Below are positions 3,601-38,961 of a stretch of DNA of 42,446 nucleotides, in pieces. Origin of the DNA: a virus; the IMG/VR virus record IMGVR_UViG_3300044529_000039, positions 1 through 42,446 of that record. One strand, given 5' to 3'. The notes under the pieces were generated by a model. That model ran no database searches. It saw only the letters and a list, made by a program, of their open reading frames with translations, and was not told the origin of the DNA. Position numbers and translations under genes: made by a program. Each line of letters begins with the position of its first letter. The first letter of the stretch is position 1.

Positions 3601-4892
3601 GCACCACCGGCGGCTGGTTCACGGTGGCGCTCGATGACACGATGCCGGAGACCATCCCGGAGGACATGCTGCTGACGATCTATGCGACCAGCAGCGAGAA
3701 CGCGCTGACGCTGACGGTGGATGAGCTGAGCCTGATCTACGCGCAGACGCCGTACCTGGACCTGGTGCTGTTCGGGAGCTACGGGAACAATCCGGAGGGG
3801 ATGGACGGAGTGAGCGGCAAGTTTGGGCCGGTGACGGACACGCGCAAGGTGATGGACTTTGGGGTGCTGCGCGAGACGTTCTACATGCTGACGCAGGACC
3901 CCACCGGGCGGGTGCATGAGACCACGGACAACGGCACTACCGAGCCCAGCGGGTGGGATGTGAACGAGGTGGGCGCGAACTGCGGCGCGCTGAGCGCGTT
4001 CAGCCTGACGAAGAGCCAGGCGGACGACACTGCGGCGAGCGGCGGCGAGGAGTGGTTTGTGTACGCGAGCTCGTCGGGATCGCGGATTTTTGGGGGTGCG
4101 TACCCGGACAAGATCAGCCAGGAGATCCAGCCGGACTGGGCGGGGATCAACCCGGCGGCCGCGCTGACGATATGGAGCCTGAATGACCCGGTGGGCCGGG
4201 CGATCTACACCGGCGTGCCGCTGGGCGCGGCCACCGCGCCGAACAAGGTGCTGTTTATGAGCTACCGGCAACTGGACAGCGCGCAGGCCATCGCGCAGAG
4301 TCCGCCGTTCCGGGTGAGCTTTACCGGCAAGCTGATTGCGACGGACAACAGCCGAAAGTGGAGCCTGTGGAACGTGCAGGCGAACTGCGGCGCGCTGATG
4401 TACCGCGCGGCGGGGGCGCTGAGCGTGGTGCTGGGCGGCGGCAACGGGCAGACGCCGGGGCTGGCCGCGGGCTATGGGCAGGTGTACACGCTGAATCCCG
4501 CGAAGTACACCGACGACGACTATGGGCAGATGTTCCCGTACTACTTCACCTGCGCGATGCCGACCAGCCAGCAGGAGCAGGCGCTACAACTGGGCGGCGG
4601 GCAGAAGGAGCTGATGTATCTGACCGCGTATGTGCAGTGGGTGGGGCAGATGACGGTGACGGCGTACCCCAACGCGCTGAGCAACCCGTGGAGCCTGAAC
4701 TGCGTGCGCACGGTGAGCCAGGAGAACTTTGACCTGGAGTGGGGCGGGGCGTATGCGCGGGGGAGCCGGATATTCCTGAAGTTCGCGCCGATTCCGCTTG
4801 CTGATACCACGGATGTTTACTACAATTTGCAGAGGCTGGCGGCGTACATGGCGCCGGCGGCGAGGCTGAAGGTACGAGGTGCGGCGCAATGA
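636..4892 (+). CDS. Large tail/virion structural protein (1418 aa) with beta-sandwich-like repeats
   Basis: This is the first gene of the tail module and one of the two longest proteins in the window. The sequence is rich in Gly, Thr, Ser and Val, as expected of beta-structured virion proteins. Around residues 505-650 there are three repeats of a module with the pattern V-T-T, N/H-L or G-L, P, V-T-I/M, G-V and FNGSY. Such modules are common in phage tail proteins and are sometimes annotated as FCCH-like. Residues from about 900 hold a second beta-rich section, and the C-terminal third carries DTRKVMDFGVLRE-type segments that look like a structured head-proximal or hub domain. No enzymatic motif was seen. 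The start ATG at 636 lacks a strong ribosome site. The product is probably a tail tube or hub component of a short-tailed virion; the family is not identified with certainty. Confidence 0.72.
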   Translation: MPFNIKGAVEVALEVFGGRVTEQMAVDVPEGVSPDEQDNTFVPGSVASRPCLQRVLLSSYDASTCTYQKSCVFPNGWIRNLYLFCPADAPGALVWEDPINAPGVVNLLLRVPQGSYAKSATAFGREWIAVSDTLHGATIPYQWDGTNLDRATQDGPATPPTVTNLALPPSTLSSSTGVVGDFIILPVLGGGTVAIGAGSGAAQGSSIPLPDGYETANLMTWSTAGAGTNPHDLYGVAESVAPLGVLNTLWSINNGGGSPTFAPTSNWAAVTWSTDANVTFSTVTYGGTTFKVLTFTTIQGDELAVVTGLLADGASMYVPPGFSDANWASMQGAATINSLTNVLDYIDCYFGPSEGTGGAGTVLTCRYSDFALNRTYGSANVLGIFWQLGGGVTTTAVTGGTAVLIPTFTGVTAAVITAVVPNAGSFSIPAGHTLLDSTTSVQSALGPAGSNSAVGMSAQACTGLVYGGAWIDIMSRPPWYVNGNVFALSTMGTLSTNDLTRVNNTVTATTLPGEPHNLQVGYQAQISGVPATSVGGGIASIVVDNENNPGIATVTTESEHGLLPENLVTMTGIEGAAVGGLATTVRAGGIVTATLTDPANLQPGSLVTIDAVEDASFNGSYAVLSVPSPTTFTYYQTDADGSSTGGTVALAWPIPSTGTPVTYEVLSAPTPTSFQIALNYADGEWSGGDVYFGWDGTFYVTKVIDPLTFQYQQYGPDATSSAAGQVTPFGQAAPGKHLCRVTFLTRNGAVLKSSPWVQFIANGGQYLQVENIAIGPAGVTAARIVEFTGADGSYFFYLPVQPQVNGLIVGTATQINDNTTTSAVFDFGDPSLFAGIATSIPGNDLNSQIVLDGALGFGLYGTRLITYGQRNRLQTLLNMGFDGGYVPSAPTVPTGWTVGTDGYGSLGAGLLYGGWVIDAPATGVQAGVLSQGAYQAQNGNPILTASTDYLLRVWLQASAADAGLNFYATLSSASTGFTATATVNGAGMSTTGGWFTVALDDTMPETIPEDMLLTIYATSSENALTLTVDELSLIYAQTPYLDLVLFGSYGNNPEGMDGVSGKFGPVTDTRKVMDFGVLRETFYMLTQDPTGRVHETTDNGTTEPSGWDVNEVGANCGALSAFSLTKSQADDTAASGGEEWFVYASSSGSRIFGGAYPDKISQEIQPDWAGINPAAALTIWSLNDPVGRAIYTGVPLGAATAPNKVLFMSYRQLDSAQAIAQSPPFRVSFTGKLIATDNSRKWSLWNVQANCGALMYRAAGALSVVLGGGNGQTPGLAAGYGQVYTLNPAKYTDDDYGQMFPYYFTCAMPTSQQEQALQLGGGQKELMYLTAYVQWVGQMTVTAYPNALSNPWSLNCVRTVSQENFDLEWGGAYARGSRIFLKFAPIPLADTTDVYYNLQRLAAYMAPAARLKVRGAAQ

Positions 4893-5539
4893 GCACGGGC
4901 ACGGCAGAACGACCGATTTTATTCAGCGCACCGATGGTGCGGGCTATCCTTGAAGGCCGCAAGACGCAGACGCGGCGCGTAGTGAAGCCGATACCAGAGC
5001 TAGAACAAGAGCCGGATACGGTTCTAAGCAATTGGTCGTGGGGCAACGGGCGCAACGCGAACGGAGATCCGAATTCACTGGCAGATGCCCAGCGTTACGG
5101 TTCGCCCGGGGACCGCCTGTGGGTGCGGGAGACATGGAACGCTGGTAACCCCGCGCACCCCTCGGGCATTGGAATCATGTTTGACGAAAAACCGCGCGAG
5201 GGGATGAAGCTGGTCTATCGCGCCGACCCCGAAAGCGAAACCTACGTGCCCGAAATCCCATGGCGATCACCGATCCACATGCCGCGCTGGGCCTCGCGCA
5301 TCACGCTGGAGATCGCTGAGGTTTGGGTACAGCGGTTGCAGGAGATCGGCGAAGAGGATTGCCGCGCCGAGGGTATCTGTTTGTTGAAGACAAACTGCGA
5401 TGGAGAATGCGGTCAGACACCCTGCGGCATTTCAAGGCAACCGTTTATGACGCTGTGGGACTCCATCAACGGCAAGAAGCACCCGTGGGAGAGCAACCCG
5501 TGGGTGTGGGCGGTGACATTCAACCGAGTTGAGGCCTAA
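4889..5539 (+). CDS. ASCH-domain protein
   Basis: This 216-residue protein matches the phage ASCH-like family in pattern: PILFSAPMVRAILEGRKTQT near the N-terminus, a YGSPGDRLWVRETW block around residue 70, HMPRWASRITLEI around residue 130, and a closing LWDSINGK...NPWVWAVTF. ASCH domains form a beta-barrel related to the PUA fold and are thought to bind RNA or modified nucleosides. An insert with a CDGECGQTPC cluster (about residue 170) may bind metal. The start overlaps the stop of the tail gene (ATGA), so the two are translationally coupled. Its presence inside the tail operon is a typical phage oddity with unknown purpose. A second, different ASCH protein lies at 35936. Confidence 0.85.
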   Translation: MSTGTAERPILFSAPMVRAILEGRKTQTRRVVKPIPELEQEPDTVLSNWSWGNGRNANGDPNSLADAQRYGSPGDRLWVRETWNAGNPAHPSGIGIMFDEKPREGMKLVYRADPESETYVPEIPWRSPIHMPRWASRITLEIAEVWVQRLQEIGEEDCRAEGICLLKTNCDGECGQTPCGISRQPFMTLWDSINGKKHPWESNPWVWAVTFNRVEA

Positions 5540-16539: not shown

Positions 16540-16786
16540 CTGATGGTGGTTTTCCACTTTCCCGAGCGGGAGGGCTGTGGACGGCCTGTGGAGGGACTGT
16601 GCAGATCGGCTGGAATTTTATTTTTGCACGGTTTGGGTGGGTTTTCCGAGGACTTGCACATTTTTATCCACAGCGGTAAAGTGGTGGGGACGCGGGGAGG
16701 AACGGCTTTTCCGCGTTTTGCACGACAACGGCTACTACGGCGGTATATGTCTTTTGTTCTGAATAGGTATTGACCGACGTAGTACC
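16540..16786. other. AT-enriched gap with a perfect DnaA box: candidate replication origin
   Basis: This gene-free stretch has AT-rich patches (around 16615-16625 and 16655-16668) in an otherwise GC-rich genome. A perfect TTATCCACA box lies at 16664-16672. Weaker TGTGGA-type sites lie at about 16575 and 16588 on the other strand. It lies directly before the RusA-like gene. An origin used by host DnaA is plausible because no phage replication initiator was recognised. Direct proof is lacking; no long direct iterons were seen. Confidence 0.45.
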
Positions 16787-16837: not shown

Positions 16838-17353
16838 ATGAGAGCAGGCGGCACAGCAGGCAGGGTGGTAGTTCTGAGCGATAGGGCCGTTCCAGCCGAG
16901 CCCGACCAAAGAACGGTCGGTTCGCACGGGGTGGTGCCAGCCGGCTTGACGTGCCTGGAACTGGTGGTGGCGGGGATACCGCCGAGCGGAAATCACTACA
17001 AGGTGCCGGGGCTGAAGTTTGCGGGTGGCGGCCGGCGGGCGTTCGGGTTTCGGCTGACGCGCGAGGCGCAGGACTTCCGCAACGCGGTGGCGCTTGCGTC
17101 CCGCGGCCGGACGATCGCGCCGCCGGCGCTGCCGCGGGGCCTGCGGGACAAGGTGCGCTACGCGCTGACGGTGACGGTGACCCTGGGGGCGGGGCAGCGG
17201 GGGGATGGGGACAACTTCTGGAAGTGCATCGCGGACAGCCTGCAGGCGGCAGGGGTGATCCACAGTGATGCGCGGGTGCGCCGGTGGGTGCTGACGGTGG
17301 AGGATGGCGACCGGGAGAACCCAAGGACCGAGATCTGCGCGGAGGTGCTGTGA
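16838..17353 (+). CDS. rusA: RusA-like Holliday junction resolvase
   Basis: The conserved core begins GIPPSGNHYK, the RusA-type N-terminal strand and loop, at about residue 48. The C-terminal part has GDGDNFWKCIADSLQAAGVI, with the aspartates expected to bind metal (D-x-D-N and A-D), then SDARV and a closing NPRTEI. RusA enzymes cut four-way junctions during late replication and recombination, which clears DNA for packaging. I chose the ATG at 16838 because GAGGCACGGG precedes it, as at other starts here; a GTG at 16787 is also in frame. The 45 residues before the core include a repeated DNA hairpin (16893-16927) and are not part of the family. The sigma-like gene follows with a TGATG overlap. 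Confidence 0.88.
   Translation: MRAGGTAGRVVVLSDRAVPAEPDQRTVGSHGVVPAGLTCLELVVAGIPPSGNHYKVPGLKFAGGGRRAFGFRLTREAQDFRNAVALASRGRTIAPPALPRGLRDKVRYALTVTVTLGAGQRGDGDNFWKCIADSLQAAGVIHSDARVRRWVLTVEDGDRENPRTEICAEVL
16893..16927. repeat. Hairpin repeat, copy 1 (within rusA 5' end)
   Basis: Contains CCGACC (16902-16907) and GGTCGG (16915-16920) around AAAGAAC, followed by TTCGCAC. Closely similar copies lie at 23100-23140 and 25519-25560. In rusA the repeat is read in a different codon frame from the other two. Confidence 0.8.
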
Positions 17354-17715
17354 TGGGGGCGCTGGCGGCGGTTCCGTTCGAGCGGGGGGAAGCGGTGCAG
17401 GACCGGCAGCTGGTGGTCTATGGCGTGCCGGTGGCGGGTGGGATGACGCTCGAGGAGATTGCGCAGGAGCTGGGGACCACGCGGCAGCAGGTATATGTGA
17501 TCCAGGAGCGGGCGATGCGCAAGCTGCGGAGGTCGCCGGAGGCGCGCGGGCTGCTGGAGTTTGTGAATTACGAGCTCGCCGACGCGCCGCGGGCGGTGAG
17601 CTTCTTTACGAAGATCAGCGGGCCGCGCGGGGCGCTGCTGCGGGCGCTGGTGGCGGAGCGCGATGGGCCGCTGGTGAAAGAATGGCAGGGTGAGGCAGGG
17701 AAGTGCAGGGGTTAG
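17353..17715 (+). CDS. Stand-alone sigma-70 region 4-like protein
   Basis: 120 residues from the ATG coupled to the rusA stop. Residues about 31-70 (MTLEEIAQELGTTRQQVYVI, then QERAMRKLRR) match the helix-turn-helix of sigma-70 region 4.2, which normally reads the -35 box and touches the beta flap. Regions 2 and 3 are absent. A protein with only this domain could redirect or block host RNA polymerase, or act as a late-gene activator. The C-terminal 45 residues have no recognisable domain. It might also be a simple DNA-binding protein of the same fold. It ends convergently with the leftward operon, overlapping by three to four bases. Confidence 0.75.
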   Translation: MGALAAVPFERGEAVQDRQLVVYGVPVAGGMTLEEIAQELGTTRQQVYVIQERAMRKLRRSPEARGLLEFVNYELADAPRAVSFFTKISGPRGALLRALVAERDGPLVKEWQGEAGKCRG

Positions 17716-17870
17716 TGGGTGAGGGTGTAGATGAGGTAGCCCAGAGAGAAGAAGATCCCGCAAAAGTACAGCAGAATGAAGAGCAGGGCGCCCCAGGCCA
17801 GGACCCTGCGCCAGAGAGCGATGCGCTGAGGCGGGCGGGGATTGTAGATGGTGAGCATAAAGTTATCCAC
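17712..17870 (-). CDS. Small single-pass membrane protein
   Basis: Leftward frame starting at GTG 17870 (MDNF...) or at the in-frame ATG 17858. The product is about 48-52 residues: a short basic N-terminus (YNPRPPQRIALWRR), then a hydrophobic segment of about 24 residues (VLAWGALLFILLYFCGIFF) and an aromatic tail. It is the last gene of the leftward operon. The GTG start lies in a 38-bp element shared with the methyltransferase gene at 21580, also at a GTG-GA start, which favours the GTG. Function unknown; such proteins in phage accessory operons sometimes act in superinfection exclusion. Confidence 0.55.
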   Translation of the reverse strand: MDNFMLTIYNPRPPQRIALWRRVLAWGALLFILLYFCGIFFSLGYLIYTLTH

Positions 17871-17900
17871 AGATTTATTTGATTTTGGGGGCTTGACACG
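17863..17900 (-). repeat. 38-bp leader element, copy 1, containing a perfect DnaA box
   Basis: TTATCCACA (17863-17871), ATTTATTTGATTTTGGGGG and CTTGACACG are matched, in the opposite orientation, by 21550-21587 with only a few differences. Relative to its downstream gene, each copy reads CGTGTCAAGCCCCC ... AAATAAATCTGTGGA, ending at a GTG start. Confidence 0.82.
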
Positions 17901-17903
17901 TTG

Positions 17904-17925
17904 TACAGGGATTAGGGAATAGGGG
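17904..17925. repeat. GGGATTAGGGAATAGG-type repeat array
   Basis: Units AGGGATTAGGGAATAGGGG lie immediately beyond the stop of the leftward gene at 17926-18633, that is, at its 3' end. Same family as the other arrays. Confidence 0.75.
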
Positions 17926-18633
17926 TTAGTGAACAGCGGGGCGCCCCCTGCACGACCGCACCTTGCAGGGCTTGCGAACGTGCACGTGACAGTGCTTCAC
18001 GGACGGCGGGTGGGGCATGACCGCTGCTTTGTTGGCTACGTCAAGGGAATCATCCCATTCGTCCAGAATCTCCTTCTTCTCTTTCATATCGCTGTCGTAC
18101 TGCGCGGCCTGGGACTTGAGCAGGTAGTTGATTACCTCGTCCAGCGTGTGCCCGTCAGCGATCTTGCAGTCCTTCACCTTGTTGCTATCCGCCGTGGCGC
18201 AAGTCATTAACGGCGGGGTGTAGATGCTGTCCGCCAAAAAGAAGGACGGCATGACGGGGGCGGTAGTTATGCAAGCCCCATCCGCACACCCAACAATTAG
18301 GCCGGACGACGGCTGTACCTGTGGCAGTTGCGTGGATACAGTCGGCCAGCACCGTTGCATGAACCCATCTCGCGGGCCGTGCGTGTCTCCGCCAACATAC
18401 CCATCTGGGCAAGTGGACTGCGGCATCTTCGCGCAATCGTCGCGGAACTTCTTCTCTTGCTCCGGCGTGGAATCAGCGAACCCCGGCGTTCCGTTCGGGA
18501 TGAAGACGCAAGCGTGAAGCTCCACAGGGACAGAGCCATCAGACACTTGCCCGGTATACATTACAGCGCGGTCGGCTGGCGTGGACACCTGCGGGTGCAT
18601 CAGGGCGAGAGCGACGGCGAGGATGATGGGCAT
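17926..18633 (-). CDS. Secreted or periplasmic Cys-containing protein, unknown
   Basis: The ATG at 18633 is chosen because AGGAGCGCCC precedes it; an ATG at 18660 is also in frame. The product starts MPIILAVALALMHPQVSTPA, a short signal-like hydrophobic segment. The body has about ten cysteines in pairs (KMPQSTCPDGY, IVGCADGACIT, LMTCATADSNKVKDC) and a helical charged stretch (SDMKEKKEILDEWDD). It ends in a His/Cys-rich tail (KHCHVHVRKPCKVRSC). Disulfide or metal binding outside the cytoplasm is plausible. Codon use is less GC-rich than in the structural genes. No family recognised. Confidence 0.6.
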   Translation of the reverse strand: MPIILAVALALMHPQVSTPADRAVMYTGQVSDGSVPVELHACVFIPNGTPGFADSTPEQEKKFRDDCAKMPQSTCPDGYVGGDTHGPRDGFMQRCWPTVSTQLPQVQPSSGLIVGCADGACITTAPVMPSFFLADSIYTPPLMTCATADSNKVKDCKIADGHTLDEVINYLLKSQAAQYDSDMKEKKEILDEWDDSLDVANKAAVMPHPPSVKHCHVHVRKPCKVRSCRGRPAVH

Positions 18634-18664
18634 GGGCGCTCCTATTTGCGGTGAATGCATTTAG

Positions 18665-19204
18665 TTAGAGTCCAACCGCCGAGCGGCCGGGATGGGTGGG
18701 GATGGTGTCGGGGTCGGGCTCGCAGAGGACGGAGTCGCCGTCGGGTTCGACCTGGCAGGTCCAGCGGGAGTCAAAGCCTGTGGGGTGTGGGCCGTCGGGC
18801 GCGGAGCCTTTGACGTCGGGATCCAGCAGGGGGCAGTAGAGCCTGCCGGCGAGATTGGCCTTGACGCCGGTCCAGGAGGGGTAGCTGTAGCAGGCGAAGG
18901 TGACGCCGGCCAGAAGGGTATCGGGGAAGGCACGCTGAGACACAGCCGGGCACGGGTGCGCGGGGGATTTGCAGGGCTGCTGGGCGTGGGCGCAGCCGGT
19001 GGAGAGCCAGACCACCACCACGACAGCCACGGCGGCACAGAGCCAGCCGAGGACGCGCTTGAGGGTGATGGGGCGGGGCGGGCGTTCCCATGCGAGGCGG
19101 TTGATGTCGGCGCGGCGCTGGATGAGCGCCTGAATGTCCGGGTCGTTTGCTTCCGCCATCATGCGCGCGGAGCGGATGCGGTCGCGTTCAGAAGAGGTAG
19201 CCAT
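18665..19204 (-). CDS. Membrane-anchored Cys-rich protein, unknown
   Basis: 179 residues; the ATG at 19204 follows AAAGGATCCCACCTC, a good ribosome site. Residues 1-48 are charged and cytoplasmic in character. Residues about 49-70 are one membrane segment (VLGWLCAAVAVVVVVWLSTG) followed by CAHAQQ. A Cys/Pro-rich exported domain follows, with six to seven cysteines (CKSPAHPC, FACYSYP, LYCPLL, TCQVEP, VLCEPD). The LSTGC run resembles a lipobox but sits far from the N-terminus, so a type II anchor is more likely. It lies between two other Cys-rich genes of the same operon, which suggests a joint envelope function. Confidence 0.62.
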   Translation of the reverse strand: MATSSERDRIRSARMMAEANDPDIQALIQRRADINRLAWERPPRPITLKRVLGWLCAAVAVVVVVWLSTGCAHAQQPCKSPAHPCPAVSQRAFPDTLLAGVTFACYSYPSWTGVKANLAGRLYCPLLDPDVKGSAPDGPHPTGFDSRWTCQVEPDGDSVLCEPDPDTIPTHPGRSAVGL

Positions 19205-19466
19205 GAGGTGGGATCCTTTCGAGATCGAGGATGGGGACGATGGGTTGCGGGTCGCCGATTGCTGCGTCCAGCATACCGCTGAGATGGGTGAAGCCAGGAG
19301 AGGCAGGGTCGGGCAGGGCGGTGCAGGGAGGGTCCGAGAGGCCCAGGGGCAGCGCCATGGTGCGGAGGGTGGGGTTGGCGCAGGAGATGTGGCGGACGCG
19401 GCAGCCGTCGATCTGCCAGCGGTGCCCGCGCTTGATGTGACCGGTGCAGTCGGCGCAGATTCTCAT
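19188..19466 (-). CDS. Small zinc-binding protein, unknown
   Basis: 92 residues starting MRICADCTGHIKRGHRWQID. The ATG overlaps the TGA of the gene upstream (ATGA), which decides the start. A CADC knuckle (residues 4-7) and CRVRHISC (about 22-29) could bind one zinc ion, as in small zinc-finger proteins that read host nucleic acid or bind proteins. The rest is Pro/Leu-rich. It overlaps the start of the next leftward gene by 17 bases. Confidence 0.6.
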   Translation of the reverse strand: MRICADCTGHIKRGHRWQIDGCRVRHISCANPTLRTMALPLGLSDPPCTALPDPASPGFTHLSGMLDAAIGDPQPIVPILDLERIPPHGYLF

Positions 19467-20110
19467 GGGACCAGCACCCGAACTTCGTCCCATGTCTTGA
19501 ATCCGAAGAACGCCAGGAAGTAGGGTTGCTTGCCGTCACGTGCGAGGATGTCTATGCCTTGAATCTCGGAGGCAGCTTCCGCCGCAGCCCCGGCCGCAGC
19601 CCCGGATGCCGCCGCGCCCGCCGCAGCCCACGTCGCAGCCCCCGCCGCAGCCCCGGATGCCGCCGCGCCCGCCGCAGCCCACGCCGCAGTCCACGCCGCA
19701 TCCCTCGCCAAGCCGCCCACCGCCGCATCCCTCGCCAAGCCGCCCACCGCCGCATCCCACGCCGCAGCCGAAAGCCCGTCCAGATGCAACCAGAACGCCA
19801 GCAGCAGCGGAGCCTTATCGCCTACGATCTGCTCAGGGTTGGACAGTACGATTTGCGGAGCGCCGCCTACCTTGTCGGTGACGTTGCGGAGTAGCACAGA
19901 ATGGGTGCGCGAGATCCCGAGAATCTTCGCCACCTCCGCGTCTGCGTTGAATTGCGTCATGGCGCGAAGCTGGTCGTCTGTGAATCCAGCGCAGTGCAGT
20001 ACATCGCCTTGCGCGCAATAGCAGCCCTCAGCGTCAATCAGGCTACCCCTGAATAACGGGCGGTCGCGTCCCGTCCAGCGTTCGATCATTGTTTCGATTG
20101 TGGGTGGCAT
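19463..20110 (-). CDS. Protein with Ala-rich tandem repeats
   Basis: 215 residues from the ATG at 20110, which follows AAAGGCACAGCT; an ATG 15 bases upstream is also in frame. The N-terminal half is globular: a TMIERWTGRDRPLFRGSLID start, an AEGCYCAQGDVLHCAG segment with three cysteines, and AEVAKILGISRTHSVLLRNV. After an AFWLHLDG segment comes a run of tandem Ala-rich repeats: two 9-residue units (AAVGGLARD) and two 17-residue units of the TWAAAGAAASGAAAGAA type. The C-terminus (YFLAFFGFKTWDEVRVLVP) is again ordered. I recall similar globular-plus-Ala-repeat proteins in phage and soil bacterial genomes, with no known function. Confidence 0.65.
   Translation of the reverse strand: MPPTIETMIERWTGRDRPLFRGSLIDAEGCYCAQGDVLHCAGFTDDQLRAMTQFNADAEVAKILGISRTHSVLLRNVTDKVGGAPQIVLSNPEQIVGDKAPLLLAFWLHLDGLSAAAWDAAVGGLARDAAVGGLARDAAWTAAWAAAGAAASGAAAGAATWAAAGAAASGAAAGAAAEAASEIQGIDILARDGKQPYFLAFFGFKTWDEVRVLVP
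19593..19748. repeat. Two tandem coding repeats (51-bp and 27-bp periods)
   Basis: A 40-bp block starting at 19593 recurs unchanged at 19644, a period of 51 bp (17 codons). GCCGCATCCCTCGCC and its following bases recur at 19695 and 19722, a period of 27 bp (9 codons). Periods are multiples of three, so copy-number change would keep the frame. Confidence 0.9.
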
Positions 20111-20121
20111 AGCTGTGCCTT

Positions 20122-20418
20122 TCAATTCCCGTAGTACGCCGCGGACCAGTCAGGGCGCGGGTTGGGGTTAGGGGTGGGGAGGATGAGGCGGGTGCGGGGG
20201 AGATTGACGCAGCGCCAGCAGCCCCAGAGGTCGCCGGCGGCCTTGGAGCCGCGGACGAGGTAGCCGTGGTCGTCATGCCGCTGGCCGGAGAAGGCGAGCG
20301 GGGTGTGGGGCCCGAGGCAGTCGCGGCGATACTGCAGCTGGCAGCAGCCGCCGGCGCGGTCGAAGGCCTGCTGGCGGCGGTGCTGGAGAGAGGCGCGGCG
20401 CTGGGCGATGGTGGGCAT
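20122..20418 (-). CDS. HNH-like endonuclease fold protein
   Basis: 98 residues. The pattern QAFDRAGGCCQLQYRRDCLG, then DDHGYLVRGS, then LWGCWRCVN resembles an HNH/zinc-finger nuclease: two zinc knuckles flank a DDHG motif in place of the DH pair, and the final C-x-x-C-x-N is typical of HNH. The metal and catalytic histidine would be in DDHG. There is no ribosome site upstream of the ATG at 20418; instead a GGGAATAGGG array abuts it. It overlaps nothing on its left (11-base gap). Free-standing HNH proteins in phages can be homing enzymes or packaging partners. Confidence 0.6.
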   Translation of the reverse strand: MPTIAQRRASLQHRRQQAFDRAGGCCQLQYRRDCLGPHTPLAFSGQRHDDHGYLVRGSKAAGDLWGCWRCVNLPRTRLILPTPNPNPRPDWSAAYYGN

Positions 20419-20419
20419 A

Positions 20420-20442
20420 AGGGCAGGGAATAGGGAGTAGAA
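20420..20442. repeat. GGGAATAGG-type repeat array
   Basis: GGGCAGGGAATAGGGAGTAG lies between the leftward genes ending at 20455 and starting at 20418, so it is at the 3' end of the former, as for other members. Confidence 0.78.
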
Positions 20443-20454
20443 AGGCGGTCGCTG

Positions 20455-20745
20455 TTATTGGAGCTTGGTTGTGGGTGGAAGGGTGTCGCCGGCGGTGAGG
20501 CGGGGCCGGCGGGTGGATTCGGGGAGCTGGGGTGGCGGCGGGACGAGGACCGGGCCGAAGAAGATGCCTGCGGCGCTGTCGACCTGCTGGAGGGCGGAGA
20601 GGCTGCCCTGGTTGAAGGCGTCGGCTAGGTAGTGCTCGAGGACGTCGGGCGCGATGAGCCAGGGCGCGCCGGGGGCGATCCTGAGCTCGCGCTGGGTGCG
20701 CGCGACGAAGTTGCGGGCGAAGGTGGTGGCGGGGTAGCTGGACAT
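20455..20745 (-). CDS. Hypothetical protein, 96 aa
   Basis: The ATG at 20745 is preceded by ACGAGG with nine bases of spacing, so the shorter start is used rather than an upstream extension. The product (MSSYPATTFARNFVARTQRE at the start) has a helical N-terminal half, an AADAFNQGSLSALQQVDS-like helix, and a Pro-rich tail. No motif is recognised. It belongs to the leftward operon. Confidence 0.55.
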   Translation of the reverse strand: MSSYPATTFARNFVARTQRELRIAPGAPWLIAPDVLEHYLADAFNQGSLSALQQVDSAAGIFFGPVLVPPPPQLPESTRRPRLTAGDTLPPTTKLQ

Positions 20746-20803
20746 TGAAGAAACCTCGTAAAAAGTGCAACGGTAAGTGACCCACGAAAGAACGGGGTGG
20801 TGG

Positions 20804-21160
20804 TTAGCTCGCGTAACTGCCGAGAACCAGACCGCGATCCTCGAGGCTGTCGGTATCGGGCTGTGGGCGACGGGAAGGGCGGCGACGGGGGGAGTCATCC
20901 TCCTGCGCGGCAACAAAGGCGCGCTGGGCCTGCCAGAAGGCTTCACAGCCAAGGCGCTTGTGGTCGGGGACGTTGCGGCAGGGGCAGCAGGGCGCGGTGA
21001 TTTCGGCTGCGATGCTCGCCAGAACAATGGGGCAAGCCGGCTTGTGGTAGCCGCGTCCGCCGCAATCGAGGCACTCGTCGCCGTGGTCTACGCCGCATTC
21101 GCGGCAGCAAAGCGTCTCCGGGTCGATGGTGCAGTCTGAGTCTTGGGTGTGGTTTGCCAT
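20804..21160 (-). CDS. Multi-knuckle zinc-binding protein
   Basis: 118 residues from the ATG at 21160, which follows GGAGGGGCATCT, a strong ribosome site. Cysteine clusters CCRECG, DECLDCGGRGYHKPAC and CCPC (residues about 18-70) suggest two or three zinc sites. One resembles the CxxCxGxG half of a DnaJ-type zinc finger (CLDCGGRGYHKPAC). The C-terminal third is basic, Arg-rich and polar (DDSPRRRPSRRPQPD). The gene is driven by the consensus-like promoter at 21189-21217 with its embedded palindrome, so its expression is probably repressible. Function unknown. Confidence 0.65.
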   Translation of the reverse strand: MANHTQDSDCTIDPETLCCRECGVDHGDECLDCGGRGYHKPACPIVLASIAAEITAPCCPCRNVPDHKRLGCEAFWQAQRAFVAAQEDDSPRRRPSRRPQPDTDSLEDRGLVLGSYAS

Positions 21161-21188
21161 AGATGCCCCTCCATGGAGCACTTAGAAA

Positions 21189-21217
21189 ACACTATTCCAA
21201 GCCGCTTGGAATGTCAA
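21189..21217 (-). promoter_or_regulatory. Leftward sigma-70 promoter with a perfect palindrome as its spacer
   Basis: Reading leftward: TTGACA (21212-21217), then 17 bases (21195-21211), then TAGTGT (21189-21194). The spacer TTCCAAGCCGCTTGGAA is a perfect 8+8 palindrome with a central base. RNA polymerase and a dimeric repressor could not bind at once. A likely start site near 21182 gives a leader of about 22 bases before the ATG at 21160. Confidence 0.82.
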
Positions 21218-21398
21218 CAGGTATTTTCTGTTTCTTTTGGCGGGCGGCGCGGGCGGCGGCGGCGTTGGCCTGGGCGGCGCGGATCTTGGCCTGCGAGGTG
21301 GACTGCCCGCCCCTGCGGCCAATGGCGGCGAGGTGTTCGCGCAGAGTGGGCTGCGGCGGCAGGAGCAGCGTGGCGGGGGCTGGGGCGGGGTTCTTCAC
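21192..21398 (-). CDS. Small basic protein between two operator-bearing promoters
   Basis: 68 residues from a GTG at 21398. The sequence [26 protein letters not shown] and the following Ala/Arg-rich helix resemble small phage and bacterial proteins with a G-x-x-G-G-x-S-x-S-x-A-K motif, sometimes classed as DNA-binding. It is encoded between two promoters that contain the same CCAAGC-N-GCTTGG palindrome, so it is a candidate for the regulator that binds them, though the XRE-type protein at 23878 is another. It is basic enough to bind DNA; no helix-turn-helix is certain. Confidence 0.6.
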
Positions 21399-21405
21399 AG
21401 GCGCT

Positions 21406-21435
21406 ATTGTATACCGAAGCCGCTTGGATTACAAT
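21406..21435. promoter_or_regulatory. Overlapping divergent promoters around an imperfect operator
   Basis: Rightward: TTGTAT (21407-21412), 17 bases, TACAAT (21430-21435). Leftward: TTGTAA (21429-21434), 17 bases, TACAAT (21406-21411). The shared spacer ACCGAAGCCGCTTGGAT is a degenerate copy of the palindrome at 21195-21211. The whole 30-bp block is itself nearly palindromic, so the two promoters compete. The rightward start site would fall at about 21442. Confidence 0.8.
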
Positions 21436-21444
21436 AGGGAGATG

Positions 21445-21470
21445 CAGGGACGAGGGATAAGGGATAAGGG
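21445..21470. repeat. GGGATAAGGGATAAGG-type repeat array
   Basis: CAGGGACGAGGGATAAGGG and AATAAGGG-like units lie in the leader of the methyltransferase gene. It is the only array of this family found in a 5' leader rather than at a gene 3' end. Confidence 0.7.
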
Positions 21471-21549
21471 CACCACTGGCGCGGCTGGGCGAGACCCGCA
21501 CATCTACGTTGGTGGTGCTCCGCAGCCCACGGCGGGAATCTCTACACCC

Positions 21550-21587
21550 CGTGTCAAGCCCCCCAAGGCAAATAAATCTGTGGAAAA
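21550..21587 (+). repeat. 38-bp leader element, copy 2
   Basis: CGTGTCAAGCCCCCC, AAGGC, AAATAAATCTGTGGAAAA. This is the inverted match of 17863-17900. The GTG of CTGTGGA is the likely start of the methyltransferase gene. Confidence 0.82.
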
Positions 21588-22755
21588 GTGGCTGGTTCTG
21601 ACGGGCGATGTGCTGGCGAATCTGACCGCGATGCCGGCGGCGTCGGTGCGGTGCGTGGTGACGAGCCCACCCTATTGGGGCCTGCGCGACTACGGCGTTG
21701 AGGGGCAGATCGGGCTGGAGCCGACGCCCGCGGCGTACCTGGAGCGGATGGTGGCGGTCTTTCGCGAGGTGCGGCGGGTGCTGCGCGACGATGGCACCTG
21801 CTGGGTGAACATGGGGGACGGATATACGAGTGGCGGCAGGGCGACCTGGCGAAGCGGCGCAAGCGAAAATAAAGGTCAAGACGTGCAGAACGATCAGTCG
21901 CGGCCCGACACGCCACAAGGATTGAAACCGAAAGACATGCTGGGGATGCCGTGGCGGCTGGCGTTTGCGTTGCAGGAGGATGGTTGGTGGCTGCGGCAGG
22001 ACATCATCTGGTCCAAGCCCAACCCCATGCCGGAGAGCGTGACCGACCGCTGCACCAAGGCGCATGAGTACATCTTCCTGCTGACGAAGAGCGAGCGGTA
22101 CTTCTATGATGCCGAGGCGGTGAAGGAGCCGGCGAACGGCTGGAATGACAGCGCCATTGACGACGGCAAGAATGCCGAGGTTCACCCCAACGTGGGCAAG
22201 AAACGCGCACACCCGCGCGGGCCGGGGAACAAGACCCACAAGGGCACCTCAGCCTATGAGGGCGGCGCGGCTGAGCATCGGACGAAGGCGGGGCTGGTGG
22301 CGTATGCGGAGCGGCAGCGGGCGATTGATCGCAAAGCCGACGCCGAGATGGTTCACGGTAACAAGCCGGGACGAAGCGACGGGGGAGCCGCGTGCAATGC
22401 GCCGGGGCAACACCGCCGCAACAAGCGCAGCGTGTGGGAGATAGCGACGGAGCCGTATACGGAGGCGCACTTTGCGACCTTCCCGACCAAGCTGGTCGAG
22501 CCGTGCATCCTGGCCGGCAGCAAGCCTGGCGACGTGGTGCTGGACCCATTTAGCGGGTCAGGGACGACCGGCGTGGTGGCGCTGCGGCTGGGCCGGGAGT
22601 ACATCGGCATCGAGCTGAACCCGGAGTATGTGGCCATGAGCGAGCGCCGGCTGGCGACGTGGTGGAAGCGGCCAGCACGGCGCGCGAAGGGCACAGCCGG
22701 CGAGCATGCGCCGCTGTTCGCGAGTGATATGGAGCGAGAGGCGGTGCGGGTATGA
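21580..22755 (+). CDS. Beta-class DNA methyltransferase (N4-cytosine or N6-adenine)
   Basis: 391 residues from the GTG at 21580. The frame is open far upstream, but the core starts at [14 protein letters not shown]. The catalytic motif [12 protein letters not shown] lies near residue 27 and the SAM-binding motif [20 protein letters not shown] near residue 322: the order IV then I is that of the beta class. TSPPYW-type catalytic motifs are frequent in N4-cytosine enzymes, but some N6-adenine enzymes share it. The middle ([20 protein letters not shown] region) would hold target recognition. No partner restriction enzyme is adjacent, so it is a solitary phage enzyme that could protect DNA. ATG 21442 would be an alternative, leaderless start. 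Confidence 0.9.
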
Positions 22756-23633: not shown

Positions 23634-23682
23634 TTAGGGGCAGGGAATAGGCAGTAGGGAGTAGGGAGTAGGGAATAGGAAA
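23634..23682. repeat. GGGAATAGG-type repeat array, longest copy
   Basis: TTAGGGGCAGGGAATAGG is followed by GCAGTAGGGAGTAGG and GAGTAGGGAATAGG units. It starts immediately at the terS stop and lies between terS and the leftward membrane gene. Confidence 0.85.
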
Positions 23683-23690
23683 GACGAGGA

Positions 23691-23855
23691 TCAGCGCGTG
23701 TGCAGCAGGGCCGGAAGGTAGCCGAGCAGGATGGCCAGGCACCAGCAGGCCATGCCCAGCCATCCGTAGGTGACGCGACGGGCGGGGACGTTGAAGCCGG
23801 CGAGGCAGAGCAGGACCAGCGCGGCGAGCAGGAGAAGGAAGGGGAACGGGTTCAT
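23691..23855 (-). CDS. Small two-pass membrane protein
   Basis: 54 residues encoded leftward from the ATG at 23855, preceded by AGGGGTACTTTCC. Two hydrophobic segments, MNPFPFLLLLAALVLLCLAG and TYGWLGMACWCLAILLGYL (cut), are joined by FNVPARRV. It lies alone on the minus strand inside a rightward operon, with its start 22 bases from that of the regulator gene on the other strand. It resembles small bacterial inner-membrane proteins; it could be a leftward holin-like or host-membrane effector. Function unknown. Confidence 0.6.
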   Translation of the reverse strand: MNPFPFLLLLAALVLLCLAGFNVPARRVTYGWLGMACWCLAILLGYLPALLHTR

Positions 23856-23877
23856 GGAAAGTACCCCTGGAAGTGAG

Positions 23878-24351
23878 ATGCGGCGGGAGACGGTGAAGTG
23901 CAGCGCGTGCGGGCTGAACCAGTACCGGACGGCGAAGGATGTGTGCCGGCGGTGCGGGGTGTCGACGGGCCCGGAGCCTGAGCCGGCGGCGCCGGACCTG
24001 AGCGTTTGTGACCCAGTTGCAGAGGTTGGGCCACCCAAGGCAGCTGGCAGGACGATGAAGCCGAAGGACGCGGTTGCGCGGGTGATGCTGCGGATGCGCT
24101 ACATGGCAGGACTAAGCCAGCGCGAGGCTGAGGATCTGAGCGGACTGCAGCGAACCTACTTCAGCAAGGTGGAGAACGGTGGTGCTGCGCCGCAGATCGA
24201 TTCCCTCGTGAAATTGACCGAGCTGTACGGGCAAACGATGGAGGGTTTTGGGCGGCTGCTGGATGCGGAGATGCGCGGCGAAGGTGGTCCACTGCCGCCG
24301 AAGCCGGCGGGCAAGCCACGGGGCAGAAAGAGCTGGCGCGTGATAGAGTGA
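23878..24351 (+). CDS. Zinc-finger plus XRE-type helix-turn-helix regulator
   Basis: 157 residues from the ATG at 23878 (GGAAGTGAG before it); the in-frame ATG 23854 is possible. Residues about 7-24 hold a zinc ribbon (CSACGLNQYRTAKDVCRRCG). A Pro-rich linker follows. Residues about 75-130 form a Cro/CI-type helix-turn-helix: GLSQREAEDLSGLQRTYFSK, then VENGGAAPQIDSLVKLTELY. The tail is basic and Pro/Gly-rich. Such proteins repress promoters through palindromes, and the operator pair at 21.2-21.4 kb is a possible target. It lies between the terminase small subunit and a small virion-like gene. Confidence 0.8.
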   Translation: MRRETVKCSACGLNQYRTAKDVCRRCGVSTGPEPEPAAPDLSVCDPVAEVGPPKAAGRTMKPKDAVARVMLRMRYMAGLSQREAEDLSGLQRTYFSKVENGGAAPQIDSLVKLTELYGQTMEGFGRLLDAEMRGEGGPLPPKPAGKPRGRKSWRVIE

Positions 24352-24730: not shown

Positions 24731-25483
24731 GTGAACGACGCGAAGCCCCTGTGTATCGACCTGTTCTGCGGCCTGGGCGGATGGTCTGAGGCGTTCATCG
24801 CCGAGGGCTATGAGTGCCGGGGCTATGACATTGAGGCGCATGAATACGGCGAGCAGAAGTATCCCGGCACGCTGATCCTGCGCGATGTTCGTTCCATTCA
24901 CGGCAGCGAGTTCGCGGATGCGGCGATCATCGTGGCGAGCCCACCGTGCCAGGCGTACAGCTACCGGGCGATGCCGTGGAGCCGCGCGAAGGCGCTGCCG
25001 CCACCGGACAACACGCTGTTCAACGAGTGCTTCCGCATCCAGCGGGAGGCGAGCGAGGCGGCGGGGCGGTACATCCCGATGGTGGTGGAGAACGTGCGCG
25101 GGGCGCAGAAGTGGGTTGGGCCCTCAAAATACAACTATGGCAGTTTTCATCTTTGGGGCGATATTCCCGCGCTTATGCCAGTTCCGGCGAAGGTCACAAA
25201 ATCAAGACACGGCTCATGCAAGCGACTACCCGGCGCAAAAGGGGGACGAATATCAGGATGGCCGCACATCGTTGAAAATGAAGGGATAAAGCAATCGGGA
25301 ATTGGGGGCCCAAGGCAAAACGGTAAAGGCGATGCATGGTTCCAGAATGGAGCCGCCGCACATGGAAGCAAATCACTCCAGCGCAAGGCAGCGAGCGCGA
25401 TGATTGCCAAAATCCCATACCCACTGGCGCAGCACATCGCGCGGACGTACTACCCGAGGCCCAGGCTGGTAGAGGCCGGATGA
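24731..25483 (+). CDS. C5-cytosine DNA methyltransferase (compact)
   Basis: 250 residues from a GTG preceded by AGGACGAGGAC. Motif I is DLFCGLGGWSEAFIAEGYEC (residues about 9-28), motif IV ASPPCQAYSYRAM (catalytic Cys near residue 73) and motif VI VVENVRG (near residue 119). The C-terminal PLAQHIARTYYP is the usual motif X-like helix. The classic RxR of motif VIII and a large target-recognition domain are not evident; the enzyme is short for the family. It transfers a methyl group to cytosine in DNA. The stop overlaps the terminase start (ATGA). Confidence 0.87.
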   Translation: MNDAKPLCIDLFCGLGGWSEAFIAEGYECRGYDIEAHEYGEQKYPGTLILRDVRSIHGSEFADAAIIVASPPCQAYSYRAMPWSRAKALPPPDNTLFNECFRIQREASEAAGRYIPMVVENVRGAQKWVGPSKYNYGSFHLWGDIPALMPVPAKVTKSRHGSCKRLPGAKGGRISGWPHIVENEGIKQSGIGGPRQNGKGDAWFQNGAAAHGSKSLQRKAASAMIAKIPYPLAQHIARTYYPRPRLVEAG

Positions 25484-38081: not shown

Positions 38082-38100
38082 GTGGGCACGGAGAACGTGC

Positions 38101-38961
38101 ATGGCCACGCCAGAACGACCCATTTTGCGATACCACGGCGGAAAGTGGGTGCTGGCCCCATGGATCATCGCTCACATGCCCGCGCATCGCGTTTATGTAA
38201 AACCCTTTGGGGGCGCAGCCTCTGTTTTACTGCGGAAACCGCGCGCATATAGCGAGGTTTACAACGATCTTGACGGCGAAGTGGTGAATCTCTTCCGCGT
38301 GGCCCGCGACGAGGGTGAAAAACTCCGCAAGTTGCTGGAAATGACGCCATTTTCCCGGCAAGACTATCTGACAGCATGGGAACCAGCGAACGATCCGGCA
38401 GAACAAGCCCGGAGGACGGTAGTGCGGTCATTTATGGGCTTCGGGAGCGCGGCTGTGACAAAGCAGCGAGCCCCGGAGTCCAGGAGCCGTGGAGGGCTCG
38501 CGCTGACGGGTTTCCGCGCCAATAGCAACAAGTCAGGGACCACACCCGCACACGATTGGAAGAATTTGCCCGACGTCTTCCCTGCGATCATTGATCGGCT
38601 GCGCGGGGTTGTAATCGAGAATCGGCCGGCCGAGCAAATTATTGCCTCCCACGATGGATTGGAGACGCTGCACTATGTGGATCCGCCGTATGTGGCCGCA
38701 ACGCGGGACAAGGGCGGAGATTACCGTCACGAGATGAGCGACGACGACCACCGGCTGCTGGCTGTGGTCCTGCGTGGTGTGAAGGGGATGGTGATGCTCT
38801 CCGGCTATGACTGCGCGCTGTATGGCGAACTGTATGAAGGCTGGCAGCGCATTGAGCGTACAGAGCCAGCCGAGGACGCGCGGAAGCGGGTTGAATTTCT
38901 CTGGTTCAACGCTGCCGCGTGGGAACGCAGACCGCAAATGAGTCTGGCAGGTGCAGCATGA
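38101..38961 (+). CDS. Dam-type (alpha-class) N6-adenine DNA methyltransferase
   Basis: 286 residues from the ATG at 38101 (GGAGAACGTGC before it). ILRYHGGKWVLAPWIIAHMP opens the family core. Motif I is VYVKPFGGAASVLL (about residue 30), where the usual Glu is Lys. NDLDGEVVNLF follows, and motif IV is HYVDPPYV (near residue 194). The order I then IV is that of alpha-class or Dam enzymes. It transfers a methyl group to adenine. Codon use is less GC-biased than in its neighbours, a sign of separate origin. Located between coat and virion genes, an unusual place. The next gene overlaps the stop. Confidence 0.9.
   Translation: MATPERPILRYHGGKWVLAPWIIAHMPAHRVYVKPFGGAASVLLRKPRAYSEVYNDLDGEVVNLFRVARDEGEKLRKLLEMTPFSRQDYLTAWEPANDPAEQARRTVVRSFMGFGSAAVTKQRAPESRSRGGLALTGFRANSNKSGTTPAHDWKNLPDVFPAIIDRLRGVVIENRPAEQIIASHDGLETLHYVDPPYVAATRDKGGDYRHEMSDDDHRLLAVVLRGVKGMVMLSGYDCALYGELYEGWQRIERTEPAEDARKRVEFLWFNAAAWERRPQMSLAGAA

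Follow-up and report, generated by a model that had tools for sequence, protein, structure and literature searches.

Nine small leftward genes of a tailed soil phage, probably of Acidobacteriota, as a likely early accessory operon with a predicted local repressor

Analysis of a 42,446-base IMG/VR virus record (referred to here as the window, the whole stretch of DNA that was analysed) revealed nine small leftward open reading frames (ORFs), lettered A to I from left to right, at 17712-21398. These ORFs run against the structural genes. The first-pass annotation had described them as an operon of zinc-binding, membrane and exported proteins and had suggested a role in superinfection exclusion, host-surface change or competition with other phages. 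The locus therefore raises the questions of whether the ORFs are genes, whether they are expressed as a regulated unit and what such a unit might do. The features considered are listed in Table 1.

Table 1. Features of the leftward block and of its surroundings in the window
Feature	Positions	Strand	Description
Gene A	17712..17870	-	52 aa; GTG start (ATG at 17858 possible); one-pass membrane protein
Gene B	17926..18633	-	235 aa; Cys-rich, weak signal peptide; AGGAG ahead of ATG 18633
Gene C	18665..19204	-	179 aa; N-terminal part of ~50 residues, one transmembrane helix, Cys-bearing C-terminal part
Gene D	19188..19466	-	92 aa; CxxC...CxxxH zinc-type motif; ATGA overlap with E
Gene E	19463..20110	-	215 aa; conserved N-terminal domain, Ala-rich repeats, conserved SEIQG tail
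Gene F	20122..20418	-	98 aa; possible degenerate HNH protein
Gene G	20455..20745	-	96 aa; Cys-free, no match; GAGG ahead of ATG
Gene H	20804..21160	-	118 aa; 11 Cys, zinc-type pairs; strong GGAGGGG ribosome site
Gene I	21192..21398	-	68 aa; basic Ala-rich protein; GTG start near the promoter-like site of I
51-nt leader/start element of A	17863..17913	-	Holds DnaA-box consensus site TTATCCACA
51-nt leader/start element of divergent methylase	21537..21587	+	GTG at about 21578-21580
Promoter of H	21189..21217	-	TTGACA, 17-nt palindromic spacer (predicted operator, 21195-21211), TAGTGT
Two opposed promoter-like sites	21406..21434	.	Towards I and towards the divergent methylase, around the second operator core
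Candidate repressor	23770..24351	+	Zinc ribbon and Xre-type HTH (Pfam HTH_3, E = 1.2e-7); homologue in relative L047

With a GC content of about 66%, long open frames often arise on the antisense strand, and codon usage learned from the rightward genes does not favour most of the block ORFs. Both observations would fit a reading in which part of the set consists of non-genic antisense frames that high GC has kept open. The codon score falls short here because the local plus strand stays G-rich, and a test that uses only the strong/weak base patterns of codon pairs, and is thus independent of strand skew, was therefore applied instead. In this test, the gene reading beat all five other frames for each of the nine ORFs, and the shadow ORFs were rejected: all eight long antisense ORFs over the structural genes failed, as did seven of eight rightward ORFs that compete with the block genes. 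The remaining one overlies the repeats of E, a gene whose leftward reading has homologues. The test is good and not perfect, as 1 of 10 real control genes failed it too. A gene caller based on the same score recovered eight of the nine block genes in place; D was missed because it overlaps its neighbours. Ribosome sites ahead of B, C, E, G and H, together with the homologues of E, also argue against the non-gene reading, which we regard as highly unlikely. All nine ORFs are taken as genes, as the first-pass annotation had proposed.

The genes are closely packed. E and D share an ATGA overlap, D and C overlap by 17 nt, and all other junctions are gaps of 11 to 58 nt. The earlier statement that several genes overlap by ATGA thus comes down to the single case of E and D. 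The plus strand is G-rich across the block, so that the coding strand is C-rich in seven of the nine genes. The exceptions are E and B, which this difference in skew may mark as later arrivals. The rightward gene at 17353-17715, which converges on A with overlapping stop codons, encodes a sigma-70 region 4 domain (Pfam E = 8.5e-8), and its product could be a phage transcription factor.

Inspection of the region upstream of H revealed a TTGACA hexamer, followed by the perfect 17-nt palindrome TTCCAAGCGGCTTGGAA as the spacer and by a weak TAGTGT. Only one of the eight TTGACA sites in the window has a palindromic spacer, and the chance expectation for such a site is about 2e-4 for the whole window. 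The palindrome core, AAGCCGCTTGG, has one further exact copy in the window, at 21417-21427, 218 nt away, where it sits between two opposed TTGTA(A/T)-17-TACAAT sites. The operator-bearing promoter that had been proposed for the block is hence supported, and the palindrome suggests that this promoter is regulated. Temperate phages have operator-controlled early promoters. The arrangement found here resembles these in the palindromic operator inside a sigma70-type promoter, in the divergent promoters and in the presence of an Xre-type regulator gene in the same region. It differs from them in that no integrase is recognised in the incomplete contig and in that the repressor is a candidate only. 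The Xre-type protein is the natural candidate for the repressor, and its binding to the palindrome is predicted.

The block had also been described as bounded by inverted leader elements. The two inverted 51-nt copies are 82% identical and have CAAATAAATCTGTGGA in common, within which a likely GTG start codon lies. Because each copy ends at a likely start codon, that of A on the left and that of an N6/N4 methylase gene on the right, the copies are read as shared gene-start elements. They do not bound the operon, since the right copy lies outside it. For the same reasons, a mobile cassette framed by inverted repeats was rejected. An acidobacterial genomic repeat was also rejected as the source of the element: the 13-nt core occurred once in 21 genomes of the family, and the full pattern occurred in none of 61. 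A 16-mer scan of IMG/VR for the element returned only matches without a common flank. Three of the four DnaA-box consensus sites in the window fall within 16.6-21.6 kb (16664-16672, 17863-17871 and 21579-21587), where 0.06 would be expected; two of these lie in the duplicated element and so do not count as independent. The cluster possibly marks a replication origin region in a contig showing no replication genes. Degenerate repeats of the AGGGATTAGGGAATAGGG type are present at several gene junctions (17907-17929, 20425-20441, 21453-21469 and 23642-23679).

To place the block in its genomic context, relatives of the phage were compared. A syntenic relative is the 44,234-base contig G091:C135 in an Acidobacteriaceae-family genome, which has the window's order of terminase, portal, capsid, tail and fibre genes, with identities of about 30-51% (large terminase subunit [TerL], 38%; portal, 34%; major capsid protein [MCP], 40%; fibre, 46-51%). 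Based on this best structural relative, the host of the phage is likely a member of the Acidobacteriota. A search of IMG/VR with an alignment of the terminases of the window and of G091:C135 yielded 68 TerL relatives with structural genes that match those of the window; in 27 of them, the sequence upstream of the terminase exceeds 5.5 kb. The nearest relative found shares about 42% identity in the terminase, and gene calls in some relatives (e.g., L041) are unreliable.

Between its tail/fibre genes and TerL, G091:C135 carries a long leftward run that includes genes for a CHC2 primase, a VapE-like protein, a VRR-NUC protein, a DEAD helicase, an SMC-like AAA protein and YqaJ. Leftward genes upstream of TerL in L067, L054 and L065 encode DnaB helicase, a DUF3799 nuclease, ERF, a ParB-like protein, a pentapeptide-repeat protein and DNA polymerase A. 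The block thus has the slot and polarity of the early genes of its relatives: in these four contigs, as in the window, the region lies between the fibre/lysis genes and the terminase and is leftward against rightward late genes, and the order of the structural genes is shared. In content, the regions differ. Those of the four relatives carry primase, helicase, polymerase, nuclease or recombinase genes, whereas the block has none of these and not one gene in common with them. A leftward block is not present in every relative, as the slot of L047 is mostly rightward. Searches with the products of A to I, RusA and the three methylases of the contig against the 68 TerL relatives gave no match at E 0.01. 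In this comparison, the structural cassette persists through dozens of soil phages, whereas the content of the early slot is completely exchanged.

Single-protein scans of IMG/VR returned relatives for E only, in seven contigs at 44-82% identity, and a scan of bacterial genomes added four more, in contigs with assignments to Verrucomicrobia, two sphingomonads and one Acidobacteriaceae MAG. Overall, E relatives share 42-82% identity and are single occurrences in otherwise unrelated phage and bacterial contigs. The members of the family, from uncultured phages and from the bacterial contigs (L004-L014; BFVD A0A6J7XDA0), have in common a conserved N-terminal domain, an Ala-rich repeat of widely varying length and the conserved SEIQG tail; the neighbourhoods differ, and none of the contigs carries any of the other eight block genes. 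E relatives adjoin a YqaJ recombinase gene in L014 and an Imm5-like gene in L004; annealing-protein-like genes beside them in L006 and L012 were judged by eye and have no Pfam match. E behaves as a gene that moves among early regions. Near the E relative of L004, positions 4215-5009 of that contig encode a long run of CSSCSDC-type Cys/Ser repeats. Inside E, twelve-base tandem repeats occupy 19572-19775; since the repeat length differs strongly among the relatives, the copy number probably changes by slippage.

One motif of B, CKIADGHTLDEVI, recurs in a small L011 protein with a signal-like N terminus that is encoded directly beside an E relative (E = 2e-4, single comparison). This hints, as a lead, that an exported B-type partner can travel with E. 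A scan for further copies of the motif found none. IMG/VR single-protein searches with TerL, MCP, C and H gave no match. Phage isolates yielded remote TerL matches and no relative of E, of B or of the block DNA. Among 237 Acidobacteriaceae-family genomes, no relative of H or F was found; matches to B and C in genomes of this family were weak, most with internal stops, and were taken as chance.

The distribution of the genes bears on whether they form one co-inherited system; the first-pass annotation had itself named scattering or loss in close relatives as a refutation of its reading. The nine genes were not found together elsewhere: none of the 68 TerL relatives, at no more than about 42% terminase identity, has the set or any of its members, and E occurs alone in unrelated contigs. 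The proposed refutation is thus borne out in part. These findings would also fit a chance assembly (a moron bank), in which independently acquired genes with functions of their own lie side by side since the slot tolerates insertions and do not form a one-purpose operon. E travels alone, A has its own leader, I and H have separate promoter-like sites, gaps of 31-58 nt separate the genes at several junctions, and the coding-strand skew of E and B is unlike that of the other seven genes. Against this, the genes from F to B are tightly spaced or overlap, which suggests that they are transcribed together and that their translation is partly coupled. We consider a chance assembly rather unlikely, if the most serious of the alternatives, and favour the operon.

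The proteins themselves were then considered. Searches of Pfam, PHROGs, PADLOC and NCBIfam with all nine gave no meaningful family match, and none of the nine had a significant Pfam or PHROG match to a replication or recombination protein. F gave a weak PHROG HNH match at E = 0.05. Structure prediction, which had been suggested as a check for every protein, was run on E and F, and neither model was usable: that of F had a pLDDT of 45, and that of E, at a pLDDT of 55.9, had no PDB match and BFVD matches to uncharacterised phage proteins only. PDB sequence matches to E (E 0.005-1) involved the Ala-rich stretch and were taken as composition. C matched the CU044_5270 family weakly, at 14 bits against a cut-off of 100, and this match was disregarded. 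Because all block genes except E are ORFans, their biochemical functions cannot be read from sequence. Cysteines are frequent in B (11), H (11) and C (8), and CxxC pairs are present in D, F and H.

Hydropathy analysis predicted one clear transmembrane helix each in A (maximum, 2.45) and C (2.37), in keeping with the membrane proteins described earlier; the signal peptide of B is weak (1.61). Two or three of the nine proteins thus look envelope-directed, and most look cytoplasmic. An envelope role of the promoter-distal genes is possible through A and C and, more weakly, through B. On this basis, superinfection exclusion or host-surface change might be considered: A, C and exported B would alter the envelope against adsorption or injection by a second phage, with the other genes in support or regulation and with expression in the lysogen or early in infection. 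The operator-type promoter and the accessory position fit this reading. On the other hand, no homology to known exclusion or defence proteins was found, most products look cytoplasmic, A to C are not co-inherited with one another or with other block genes in the relatives, and the slot serves early replication and recombination in those relatives. No positive support was obtained for the exclusion, host-surface or anti-competitor functions that had been suggested, and we judge this explanation improbable. Still less probable is a specific, repressor-switched envelope system in which A, C and the exported Cys-rich B, with zinc-binding partners, would change the Acidobacteriota surface against competing phages. 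If true, such a system would be undescribed. To our knowledge, few phages of Acidobacteriota have been studied.

The evidence is best explained by a leftward early/accessory operon that is under a local repressor and encodes small host-directed proteins, in a tailed phage that probably infects Acidobacteriota; we hold this reading to be probable, with clear room for doubt. The description as a regulated leftward accessory operon is supported by the gene test, the operator-type promoter and the slot shared with relatives. The block has its own palindrome-bearing promoter and closely packed small genes, and it was classed as an accessory and not a replication operon because none of the nine genes has a replication or recombination match. 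The label "early" is inferred from position, polarity, promoter and E, in a block that holds no recognisable replication gene.

After infection or relief of repression, host RNA polymerase would start at the operator-bearing H promoter and at the promoter-like site before I. Transcription would then read H-G-F-E-D-C-B leftward against the late structural genes, and A would follow from its own leader copy. With the operator between -35 and -10, a bound repressor, most simply the Xre-type protein, would shut the H promoter and, via the second core copy, the divergent methylase as well. The products would be small host-directed proteins of the kind that phages swap in and out of early regions, with nucleic-acid- or zinc-binding proteins encoded near the promoter and envelope proteins at the far end.

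A switchable promoter and private sets of small genes are typical of phage early accessory regions, which hold phage proteins for redirecting or protecting the host cell. In these terms, the block looks like an ordinary, fast-changing region of this type and, as it stands, reveals no new kind of system. For further study, it provides nine proteins with clear limits, most of them unique, together with a defined promoter-operator, in a group of viruses that has barely been studied (PMC11924767).

Two complete tRNA genes, for tRNA-Thr (CGT) and tRNA-Ala (CGC), lie on the minus strand at the left end of the contig (194-270 and 398-468), opposite to the structural genes. An Rfam scan of the contig returned these two tRNAs only, and no tRNA genes were found in the relatives checked. 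The contig has no terminal overlap; this, together with the tRNA genes at its left end, indicates that the genome may be incomplete here. Replication genes are possibly among what is missing, and the true early genes of the phage may lie there too. Three DNA methylase genes are present in the contig, of the N6/N4 type (21578-22755), the cytosine-5 type (24731-25483) and the Dam/D12 type (38098-38961).
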